DNA from: Prochlorococcus sp. AG-402-L09 | GTDB lineage: Bacteria; Cyanobacteriota; Cyanobacteriia; PCC-6307; Cyanobiaceae | DNA length: 64,000 nucleotides | Assembly: GCA_003216715.1 (NCBI GenBank) | Contig: QCIK01000006.1 | Location: 1 to 64,000, forward strand | Direction: 5' to 3' | Part shown: piece after piece, positions 30,962 to 34,874 of the stretch | How the letters are laid out: every line of letters starts with the position of its first letter | How positions within the stretch are numbered: the stretch's first letter is position 1 | Notes under the pieces: model-generated | What the model saw: only the letters and a program-made list of their open reading frames with translations | Told to the model about the DNA's origin: nothing | Databases searched by the model: none | Made by a program: the position numbers and the translations under genes

Positions 30962-32263
30962 TTAATTTAACTTGATATATTCTTTAAGTACTCCGTTTCT
31001 ATTTGGATGACGAAGCTTCCTTAAAGCCTTGGCTTCTATTTGTCTAATTCTCTCTCTAGTTACATCAAAAATTTGTCCAATCTCTTCAAGCGTTTTCATC
31101 CTTCCATCATCTAAACCATAACGAAGTCTTAGAACATCTCTTTCTCTAGGACTTAATGTGGCGAGAACACCCTCCAAATCTTCTCTTAATAAGGTTTTTG
31201 CTACATCTTGTTCAGGATTTTCTATATCTGCTTCAATAAAATCTCCTAGTCGAGAATCTTCTTCTTTACCAATAGGGGTCTCAAGCGAAATAGGTAGTTG
31301 AGCACTCTTAGCGATAAATCTAAGTTTCTCAATCGTCATTTCCATGCTTTCGGCAATTTCTTCCTCGGTTGGTTTCCTTCCAAACTCTTGACTTAAAACT
31401 TTAGTGGTTTTCTTAATACGTGAGATAGTTTCATATAAATGCACAGGCAAACGAATTGTTCTGCTTTGATCTGCAATTGCTCTTGTAATAGCCTGTCTAA
31501 TCCACCATGTAGCGTAAGTTGAGAATTTATATCCTTTCTCATGGTCAAATTTTTCAGCGGCACGGATAAGTCCAAGGCTTCCTTCTTGGATTAGATCTTG
31601 AAAAGACAACCCTCTATTCATATATTTTTTTGCAATTGAAACTACCAATCTTAGATTCGATTGCACCATTTTTTCTTTTGCTCTTCTACCAAGCATTAAT
31701 CGCCTGCGGAAGCGAGTTAAAGGCATTTCTGCAATAATTGCCCATTCTTTAACAGATGGAAAATGACCGTTTTCACTTTCAAATTGAGCAGCTTCTTCCT
31801 CTAATTGAAGAAGATCAGCTATTTTTCTTGCTAATTCAATTTCTTCGTCTGGCCTAAGAAGTCTTATCCGACCAATTTCTTGGAGATAAACCCTAATAGA
31901 GTCTTCTGTATAAACTCCCTTGGGTCCTATCTTGATGCTTGCTAATGCTTTCGCGGCTGCTTCTTGAGCACTGGTAAGCATAGAGGCATTATCGTCGTCA
32001 TCGTCTAGATCGATATCTGCTTCAGTGGCTTTATTTGCTTCAGCAATTAATTTGTCGGCCTCTAGATCTAAATCAATTTTTAGATCATTTGAAGATTCTT
32101 GAGGAAGAGTTTGAGTTTCTTTAGTCACGTTTAATTTGGCGGCGGTTTTTTTAACTTTTGTGGAATTGCTTTTAGTTTCCTGGTTAATAGACATGGTTTT
32201 AGATTTCTTCTTTACCTTTGAAGTGATTTTTTCAATTGTTTTTTGGTCAGATGCTGAGCTCAT
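30962..32263 (-). CDS. rpoD: principal RNA polymerase sigma factor (group 1, sigma-70)
   Basis: Directs RNA polymerase to housekeeping promoters. The N-terminal about 95 residues are charged and low in complexity. Region 1.2 begins [16 protein letters not shown] (about residue 121). Region 2 has [26 protein letters not shown] and [17 protein letters not shown], region 3 has [13 protein letters not shown], and region 4 has [20 protein letters not shown] and [19 protein letters not shown]. The length of 433 fits a cyanobacterial SigA/RpoD. The ATG is at 32263. The upstream spacer (32264-32456) carries an inverted repeat. Confidence 0.97.
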
Positions 32264-32456
32264 GTTACTAACCGAAAAAAATGGCCGGAATCTCCTAGTG
32301 AAAATATTTCAGGAAAAACTATTTAATTTGTTAAATTTCAACGAAAACACTCTAATTTGGCATTGTCCTTAACCGTGATGAATCTTGCGAAAAATCACAT
32401 GATATCAATAAGGACTTAAAAAATATTAAAAATGTTTTGTTGAAGGATGTAAATCA
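32264..32456. promoter_or_regulatory. rpoD upstream spacer with nested inverted repeats
   Basis: This is the left part of the 379-bp rpoD-priA spacer. GTCCTTA (32365-32371) pairs with TAAGGAC (32409-32415), and inside it GTGAT (32375-32379) pairs with ATCAC (32394-32398), forming an interrupted hairpin. It must also carry the rpoD promoter on the minus strand, but I cannot pick a -10 with confidence. It leads into the small ORF/structured island at 32457. Confidence 0.4.
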
Positions 32457-32606
32457 ATGTGTAAGCAAGGATGTCAGGGGATTTCTCAGACCGGCATACC
32501 TAAGAATAGGATTATTCCTATTCTTGATAAAGCTTCTAGTCTTCCCTCTGGGTGGAATCTTGCAAGTTCCACAACAGCTTTGAAGCTGTTAACAAACCAA
32601 TGGTAG
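32457..32606 (+). CDS. possible 49-residue small protein, or structured RNA island
   Basis: ATG at 32457 has AAGGA about 11 bases upstream and opens a 49-codon frame (MCKQGCQGISQTGIPKN...) ending TAG at 32604-32606; the peptide has CxxxC at residues 2-6. The segment is visibly less AT-rich than its flanks. It also contains strong hairpins: AAGAATAGG (32502-32510) with CCTATTCTT (32517-32525), GGAA (32554-32557) with TTCC, and AACAGCTT (32573-32580) with AAGCTGTT (32583-32590). A structured RNA overlapping or replacing the ORF is as likely as a protein. It lies 36 bp upstream of priA on the same strand. I recognise no family. Confidence 0.4.
   Translation: MCKQGCQGISQTGIPKNRIIPILDKASSLPSGWNLASSTTALKLLTNQW
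32501..32590 (+). ncRNA. cluster of three hairpins upstream of priA
   Basis: Within 90 nt there are a perfect 9-bp stem with 6-nt loop (32502-32525), a GGAA/TTCC hairpin around a CTTGCAAG core (32554 to about 32570), and a perfect 8-bp inverted repeat AACAGCTT/AAGCTGTT with a 2-nt centre (32573-32590). The density of perfect stems in a moderately G+C-rich island inside an AT-rich spacer suggests an RNA structure. It does not resemble SRP RNA, tmRNA, RNase P or Yfr1 motifs that I know. No T tract follows directly. Confidence 0.35.
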
Positions 32607-32642
32607 AAAAATTTTCTGAAGTCGGCAAGTATTAAAAATAAT

Positions 32643-34874
32643 ATGAATGCTTTTATATTTGATATTTGGTTACATGTAGGTCGTGAAGGACGATGTTTTT
32701 CTTATCAAGATGGAAATCATTTAAATATAGATTTAGGCGATGTCGTTACAGTGCGTCTAAAAGGGCAACTCATGCAAGGGTTGGTCGTCAATAAGAGGAA
32801 TAGAAGCGGGACTAGTTCAAAGGAAAATTTAAATAATCTTTCATTGAATAATGTAGAAACATTAGTTCAAAAAAGAGCTATCAAAAAAGAATGGAGAGAG
32901 TGGTTAGAAGAAATTGCCCGTGAGTTATATGTATCTGATTTTCAGATGCTTAAGGCCGCGTTACCTCCTGGTTGGTTGGGAAGGTCGAAACTATTGAATA
33001 GACCTAAAAAACTTTGGTGGGTAAAATTGTCTAGTGAAAAGTATGAGAAAAACATATCTTCTAGACAGAGAGAATTAAAGGATAATCTTCTTTTGAATGG
33101 AGGAGGAAAATGGCAAAAAGATTTAGAGAGTGAGGGGTTCAGTTCTGCATTTATTAGAAAATTTGTTTCTTCGGGTTGTGGAGAAAGAGAAAAACGTCTT
33201 TTTCTTTTAGACTCTTTTGATAATGAAAAAAAGATTTTCAAGAATGAAGATCCTCAATCTTTAACCTTAGAACAAAAATTAGCTAAAGAAAAATACGAGT
33301 CTCTTCAAGATGGGTCGACTCTTTTGCTTTGGGGTATTACTGGATCTGGTAAAACCGAGGTATACCTACAAGCTGTAGCACTTGAGTTATCTGCAAGTAG
33401 ACATTGCCTGGTACTCACGCCGGAGATTGGATTAGTTCCACAATTAGTTGATCGCTTTAGAAAGAGATTTGGATCAAATGTTTTTGAATATCACAGTAAT
33501 TGTTCTGTTAAAGAAAAAATTGATACATGGAAGAGGTCTTTAGAGACAAAAAAACCTAGTGTTTTCATTGGAACTCGCTCAGCTATTTTTCTTCCCTTAT
33601 CCAACTTAGGATTGATAATTCTCGATGAAGAACATGACAGCTCTTATAAACAAGAATCACCTATGCCTTGTTACCATGCAAGAGATTTGGCAATTCATAG
33701 AGCAAAAAAATTAGGAGCTAAAGTAATTCTTGGAACAGCAACTCCATCTTTAAATGTTTGGAAAAATATACAACCCAATGGCAACATTGTTGTTGCAAGA
33801 TTAAACCGACGAATTTCAAATTGTAAATTGCCAACTGTTAGTGTCGTAGACATGCGTGCAGAATTGGCTATTGGAAATCGAAGCTTAATTAGTAGATATT
33901 TAAAAAAACAACTTATAGATATAAAAAAGAGTGGAAATCAAGCTGTCATTTTAGTACCTAGACGTGGATATAGTAGCTTTTTGAGTTGCCGTAGTTGTGG
34001 AGAGGTTGTTCAATGTCCACATTGTGATGTCGCATTAACTGTACATCGTTCTAAGGAGGGAATTCAATGGCTACGTTGTCATTGGTGTGATTTTCGTTCG
34101 AAAATTAATGATAAATGTGGAGAATGTGGCTCAACTGCTTTTAAACCATTTGGAACGGGAACACAAAGAGTTATAGATCATTTAGAGCAAGAACTAGAGG
34201 GTATAAGTTTATTAAGGTTTGATAGGGATACAACCAGAGGCCGTGATGGCCATAGATTGTTGTTAGAAAGATTTGCTCAAGGTGACGCCGATATTTTAGT
34301 AGGTACTCAAATGCTCTCTAAGGGAATGGATCTACCAAAAGTTACTCTTGCTGTTGTCCTGGCAGCAGATGGATTATTACATCGTCCTGATTTAATGGCG
34401 ACGGAAGAAACTCTTCAACTCTTTATGCAATTAGCTGGTCGTGCGGGACGAGGTGATCAACCTGGGAGGGTTGTAGTGCAAACCTATTGTCCTGATCACC
34501 CTGTGATTCTTCATTTGATTGATGGGAGGTACGAAGAGTTTTTGAAGAAGGAAGAAAAGATAAGAAAAGAAGCTGCGTTGGTGCCATATAGTCGAGCTTG
34601 TTTGTTAAGGTTCTCGGGCGAATCTTCAGAGTTGACATCAAATGGAGCATTTAATGTCTCATTGAAAATCAGGAAACTTTGCAGTGAAAAAGGCTGGAAG
34701 TTGGTTGGTCCAGCACCTTCATTAATTGAGAGAGTTGCAGGTAAATGCCGTTGGCAACTTCTTTTGTACGGTCCTGAATCAAGCCAAATCCCACTCCCCT
34801 ATGGATCTGAATTATGGAAAGATTTACCAAAAGGAGTCACCCTTTCTATTGATCCTGATCCTCTACAACTATGA
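32643..34874 (+). CDS. priA: primosomal replication restart helicase PriA
   Basis: PriA recognises stalled forks and reloads the replicative helicase. The N-terminal 3'-end-binding domain starts FIFDIWLHVGREGRCFSY. Walker A is WGITGSGKTEVYL (about residues 230-242), Walker B IILDEEHDSSYKQ, and helicase motif III ILGTATPSL. The zinc-binding Cys cluster spans SCRSCGEVVQCPHCDVAL to NDKCGECGS, and motif VI is QLAGRAGRGDQPG. The length of 743 is normal. It follows the small structured island at 32457-32606 on the same strand. Confidence 0.96.
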   Translation: MNAFIFDIWLHVGREGRCFSYQDGNHLNIDLGDVVTVRLKGQLMQGLVVNKRNRSGTSSKENLNNLSLNNVETLVQKRAIKKEWREWLEEIARELYVSDFQMLKAALPPGWLGRSKLLNRPKKLWWVKLSSEKYEKNISSRQRELKDNLLLNGGGKWQKDLESEGFSSAFIRKFVSSGCGEREKRLFLLDSFDNEKKIFKNEDPQSLTLEQKLAKEKYESLQDGSTLLLWGITGSGKTEVYLQAVALELSASRHCLVLTPEIGLVPQLVDRFRKRFGSNVFEYHSNCSVKEKIDTWKRSLETKKPSVFIGTRSAIFLPLSNLGLIILDEEHDSSYKQESPMPCYHARDLAIHRAKKLGAKVILGTATPSLNVWKNIQPNGNIVVARLNRRISNCKLPTVSVVDMRAELAIGNRSLISRYLKKQLIDIKKSGNQAVILVPRRGYSSFLSCRSCGEVVQCPHCDVALTVHRSKEGIQWLRCHWCDFRSKINDKCGECGSTAFKPFGTGTQRVIDHLEQELEGISLLRFDRDTTRGRDGHRLLLERFAQGDADILVGTQMLSKGMDLPKVTLAVVLAADGLLHRPDLMATEETLQLFMQLAGRAGRGDQPGRVVVQTYCPDHPVILHLIDGRYEEFLKKEEKIRKEAALVPYSRACLLRFSGESSELTSNGAFNVSLKIRKLCSEKGWKLVGPAPSLIERVAGKCRWQLLLYGPESSQIPLPYGSELWKDLPKGVTLSIDPDPLQL

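Follow-up and report, generated by a model that had tools for sequence, protein, structure and literature searches.

A conserved pseudoknotted RNA encoded upstream of rpoD in Prochlorococcus and Synechococcus, a candidate 5' leader of the sigma factor transcript

Introduction

Does the G+C-richer stretch between the divergent genes rpoD and priA of Prochlorococcus sp. AG-402-L09 encode a small protein or an RNA, on which strand is it read, and which gene would it serve? Few photosynthetic cells are as abundant as Prochlorococcus and marine Synechococcus, which have only a small set of protein regulators. The source genome is a 1.62 Mb draft in 43 contigs, and the window analysed here is a stretch of 64,000 nucleotides from one of them. 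In it rpoD, encoding the main sigma factor, occupies positions 30962-32263 of the minus strand, and priA positions 32643-34874 of the plus strand. A preliminary description of the gap between them pointed to a structured island that might hold either a new small protein or a small RNA, in both cases reading the plus strand.

Results

The island is real. Its core (32460-32597) has a G+C content of 0.43 within an AT-rich spacer and folds better than dinucleotide shuffles of itself (z = -3.45 for the plus and -3.70 for the minus strand), as does the region as a whole (z = -3.1 and -3.9, respectively). All the hairpins placed inside the plus-strand open reading frame by the preliminary description are present: AAGAATAGGA/TCCTATTCTT at 32502-32525, whose stem measures 10 bp and not the 9 bp originally given, AACAGCTT/AAGCTGTT at 32573-32590, and GTGGAA/TTCCAC at about 32551-32572. 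The interrupted hairpin GTCCTTA...TAAGGAC also exists (32365-32415), but only close relatives have it, and its stem does not covary among these.

The 49-codon frame (32457-32606, plus strand) and the AAGGA at 32444-32448, a plausible distance from its start, are as first described, and in 18 of 29 same-genus sequences the ATG and a length of 47-51 codons are kept. In the other 11, however, the frame is altered by a lost start, a stop, a frameshift or a changed length, and pairwise codon comparison of the close relatives yields a dN/dS of ~1.26, indicating no purifying selection on a peptide. Island DNA is 85-92% identical within the genus in all aligned genomes but one, and in the most divergent member (L059) the stems are kept through changed sequence whereas the frame is not. 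Strong conservation falls on the paired and loop segments of the RNA described below, and genera that retain this RNA have no counterpart of the frame. The proposed alignment of relatives thus went against the peptide, with neither synonymous bias nor a kept frame, and in favour of an RNA, with compensatory changes in the stems and conservation in 30 of 31 genera. A new protein of ~49 residues is therefore highly improbable, rejected on the altered frames and a dN/dS above 1, and we regard the open frame not as a gene but as sequence antisense to the RNA.

These comparisons firmly point to a structured non-coding RNA rather than coding sequence. It extends over ~130 nt (~32597-32465, minus strand) and is oriented towards rpoD; the covariance model R2, built from 43 diverse sequences, matches 138 nt (32460-32597), and the source genome carries one copy of ~134 nt. 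Two hairpins, a long interrupted stem and an apical stem are backed by compensatory changes, as is a pseudoknot that joins the loop of the second hairpin to the 3' end of the RNA. In alignment A6, 18 of 34 pairs have changes on both sides; double-change cells number 133, compared with 57 +/- 8 after shuffling and 34-61 after sliding, and the covariation score of 0.283 compares with 0.155 +/- 0.008 for shuffled and at most 0.105 for slid controls.

Reading along the minus strand, hairpin H1 (AACAGC...GCUGUU, 32573-32590) has changes on both sides in five of seven pairs, with 92.6% of cells paired. Hairpin H2 (GUGGAA...UUCCAC, 32552-32572) bears one pseudoknot strand in its loop and is paired in 85% of A6 cells, although the closest relatives are misaligned there by one column. 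The long stem P3 is formed by a 5' side CAGAGGGAAGAC (32539-32550) and a 3' side GUCUGAGAAAUCCCCUG with the conserved internal loop GAGAAA (32475-32491), the latter hardly varying among 43 sequences drawn from many genera; its helices (5 and 6) are paired in 96-100% of cells, with five pairs changed on both sides, including AGAC/GUCU to AGGC/GCCU and to AGAU/AUCU. It is capped by P4, an apical stem-loop (32493-32533) variable in sequence and length, in which pairing is partly retained: five of six pairs are changed on both sides and 69% of cells are paired.

The two pseudoknot strands, GCAAG in the H2 loop (32559-32563) and CUUGC at the 3' end of the core (32465-32469), vary together: GCAAG/CUUGC in the window becomes GCAG/CUGC in many genera and ACAG/CUGU in several, UCAAGA/UCUUGA in locus L113 and AAGUAA/UUACUU in locus L116. 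When the partners were swapped between genomes, none of 5000 permutations matched the observed pairing energy. Pairing of the 5' end with sequence beyond the pseudoknot, as a closing helix, was tried and found to be unsupported (permutation p = 0.09). Directly after the pseudoknot, GC-rich genera (e.g. loci L115, L121, L143 and L169) carry a short hairpin of the GGGC-UUUC-GCCC type, which changes in sequence and in most cases lacks a U-run.

Both strands fold nearly equally well, and the orientation is indicated by wobble pairs and by a promoter. G-U wobbles occupy 110 cells when the RNA is read on the rpoD strand, as compared with 46 cells that would be G-U on the opposite strand. Among close relatives the count is 55 to 10 in favour of the minus strand, and as one fixed U-G pair contributes 27 of the 55, it is 28 to 10 without it; within H1 the same genus shows minus-strand G-U variation in nine cells (3+1+1+4) as against one on the plus strand. 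Directly upstream of the RNA lies a conserved sigma70-type promoter on the minus strand, TTGCCG (32623-32628) and TACCAT (32600-32605) separated by 17 nt. Nearly all loci across genera have TTGC(A/C/G) 17-18 nt before the -10 element, which elsewhere is usually TAAGAT, TAGGAT or TAACAT. From its position, transcription is predicted to start at ~32593 +/- 2, a site within the first few nucleotides of the fold. Encoding on the minus strand is thus well supported, the wobble asymmetry being strong and not absolute. Accordingly, the plus-strand orientation of the preliminary description does not hold; its suggestion of a small RNA was right as to the RNA, and missed the strand, the dedicated promoter, the position on the rpoD side and the pseudoknot.

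A plus-strand element, either a leader of priA or a plus-strand small RNA, could appeal to the folding of that strand and to the location of the island ~40 nt before priA. Yet its fold would reach within 50 nt of the priA start and it would leave the minus-strand promoter unexplained; we rejected it on wobble asymmetry and promoter direction and consider it very unlikely.

The RNA is nearly universal in the family. Searching the order with a minus-strand covariance model (R1) gave a single full-length copy in 249 of the 299 genomes, and R2 found one copy in 212 of the 223 Prochlorococcus/Synechococcus family genomes that are at least 95% complete, representing 30 of 31 genera. A class-wide search outside the family gave chance-level matches only (best E 0.007 over ~250 genomes), and the rpoD-upstream regions of 20 other cyanobacterial families, searched with filters off, gave no convincing copy. 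In phages four pattern matches were unconfirmed by the model, and blastn gave no match.

Seven of the 11 genomes missed by R2 belong to a single genus, g44, in which the model found no RNA at any of the four loci checked (L219, L220, L221 and L222), while promoter-like sequence clearly persists at L219 and L220 (TTGCAG...TAGCAT). In this genus, possibly a host-associated lineage (a guess on our part), the RNA ahead of rpoD has apparently been lost. At its loci the open frame of rpoD reaches much further upstream. Two other misses, L216 and L218 of genus g30, have weak, derived versions near the expected place (E = 6e-5 and 0.0016, respectively); in L216 the H2 loop is longer by more than 20 nt. 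In genus g32 (L176 and L179-L187) the RNA is strongly diverged, scoring 37-52 bits, with synteny kept.

In all loci of two sets (20/20 and 41/41) the RNA is flanked by divergent priA on one side and by co-oriented rpoD on the other, and rpoD mostly begins 145-300 nt downstream of it. Among close relatives identity is 93% in the core, as compared with 86% where priA begins and in the region encoding the rpoD N-terminus. The spacer separating the RNA from rpoD is not conserved across genera. Within the genus, this spacer contains a strongly conserved block, ATCTCCTAGAGAT followed by AATATTTCAGGAAAAACTATTTAATTTGT (32289-32303), of which ATCTCCTAGAGAT is palindromic in most relatives; the block may represent an operator or a further promoter of rpoD. 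The rpoD ATG of the window (32261-32263) aligns with CTG in most close relatives (L033-L058), and translation in those relatives may start at an in-frame ATG ~35 nt further into the gene.

None of the 4227 families of Rfam 15 matched the window, or the corresponding loci of 12 other genomes, at gathering score, and at E values up to 10 the window gave chance-level matches only, which bears out the early remark that the stems match no common RNA family. The 6S RNA model (RF00013) matches another contig of the source genome and was not found at the rpoD-priA locus.

Discussion

Our results firmly indicate that a new, near-universal picocyanobacterial structured RNA, which matches no Rfam family, is encoded upstream of rpoD; this holds for its identity as an RNA and for its position. 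Its manner of action is a matter of likelihood. The RNA has a fixed same-strand position upstream of rpoD and, judged by sequence, a promoter of its own, and no terminator is seen before rpoD. In the 90 nt that follow the RNA, terminators are not enriched (-2.55 for the loci themselves compared with -2.24 after shuffling). As no terminator follows it, the RNA is most likely a 5' leader that regulates the rpoD mRNA in cis, and together with the location of rpoD mostly 145-300 nt downstream this favours a long leader, which in the window would measure ~330 nt, over a separate gene. We therefore lean towards a cis-acting leader, with reasonable though far from complete confidence.

The main competing view is that of an independent trans-acting sRNA that arises at the same promoter and is set free when the rpoD leader is processed, with either a protein (RNA polymerase, a ribonuclease or a ribosomal protein) or other mRNAs as partner. 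Such processing could occur, and the core is indeed self-contained, with sharp ends, a near-invariant internal sequence and a stable fold, followed by a spacer that is not conserved between genera. Nevertheless, no terminator follows the RNA, it is present as a single copy only, and its fixed site upstream of rpoD throughout the family is what would be expected of a cis element; the trans-acting reading is a conceivable but rather doubtful one. Far less probable is a divergent form of a known RNA, namely 6S, tmRNA, SRP RNA, RNase P RNA, a Yfr RNA or a known riboswitch. The size and near-universal presence of the RNA resemble those of housekeeping RNAs, but the Rfam scans, through which alone tmRNA, SRP RNA and RNase P RNA were compared, were negative, 6S RNA is encoded elsewhere in the same genomes, and Yfr1-21 of strain MED4 map to positions other than the rpoD-priA spacer (PMC2518516, PMC1242208).

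If the RNA acts as a leader, RNA polymerase would start at ~32593 and the RNA would fold first, the pseudoknot closing as its 3' strand CUUGC emerges. The state of this compact fold would then set the amount of rpoD mRNA that survives or is translated, the fold serving either as a small-molecule or protein aptamer or as a cap at the 5' end through which RNase E entry is controlled. Cis action as such is likely. That the RNA represents an undescribed class of ligand- or protein-sensing leader directly setting how much housekeeping sigma factor Prochlorococcus and Synechococcus contain is a more tentative idea, to which we give less than even weight; if true, global transcription would respond to a metabolic or stress signal via one RNA switch. 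Nearly universal and present once per genome, a pseudoknotted RNA that sits on the primary sigma factor's transcript would constitute a central point of control. It is also experimentally tractable: its boundary is clear, a covariance model exists, and its loops and stems offer defined mutations.

How does this RNA compare with those already described? Yfr103 of Prochlorococcus MIT9313 and marine Synechococcus is 290-328 nt long with seven paralogs in strain CC9605, and is also found in NATL strains, with no high-light Prochlorococcus homologs listed (PMC5069720). Both are conserved picocyanobacterial non-coding RNAs with conserved structure, but the rpoD RNA has ~130 nt and a single copy as against ~300 nt and several paralogs, and it is present in genus g25, which has genomes of 1.3-1.8 Mb and which we take to be the high-light type; identity with Yfr103 was rejected on these points of its description, i.e., length, paralogs and distribution. 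Yfr106-108 of NATL2A are presented as Northern-validated sRNAs of low-light Prochlorococcus, specific to Prochlorococcus or to a clade (PMC7368042), whereas the rpoD RNA also occurs in genera with larger, Synechococcus-type genomes; by description rather than by coordinates, it is unlikely to be one of them. A 161-nt cluster of putative non-coding RNA, CLID 229, was reported from MIT9313 and WH8102, with no location in the main text (PMC1242208), and supplementary candidate lists accompany the NATL2A study (PMC7368042); either could be an earlier sighting of the rpoD RNA.

With 6S RNA (RF00013, Yfr7) the rpoD RNA shares a wide distribution, a single copy and a thematic link to sigma-factor function, yet locus and fold are different. 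We know of no leader of riboswitch or protein-binding type for rpoD. The present RNA differs from such leaders in that neither sequence nor covariance relates it to an Rfam family and no expression platform was recognised, the platform search having covered terminators only, with a negative result. It resembles them in design: it is promoter-proximal and compact, with a near-invariant internal loop, a pseudoknot that runs from a loop to the 3' end and is closed by the 3' strand, and a gene downstream on its own strand.
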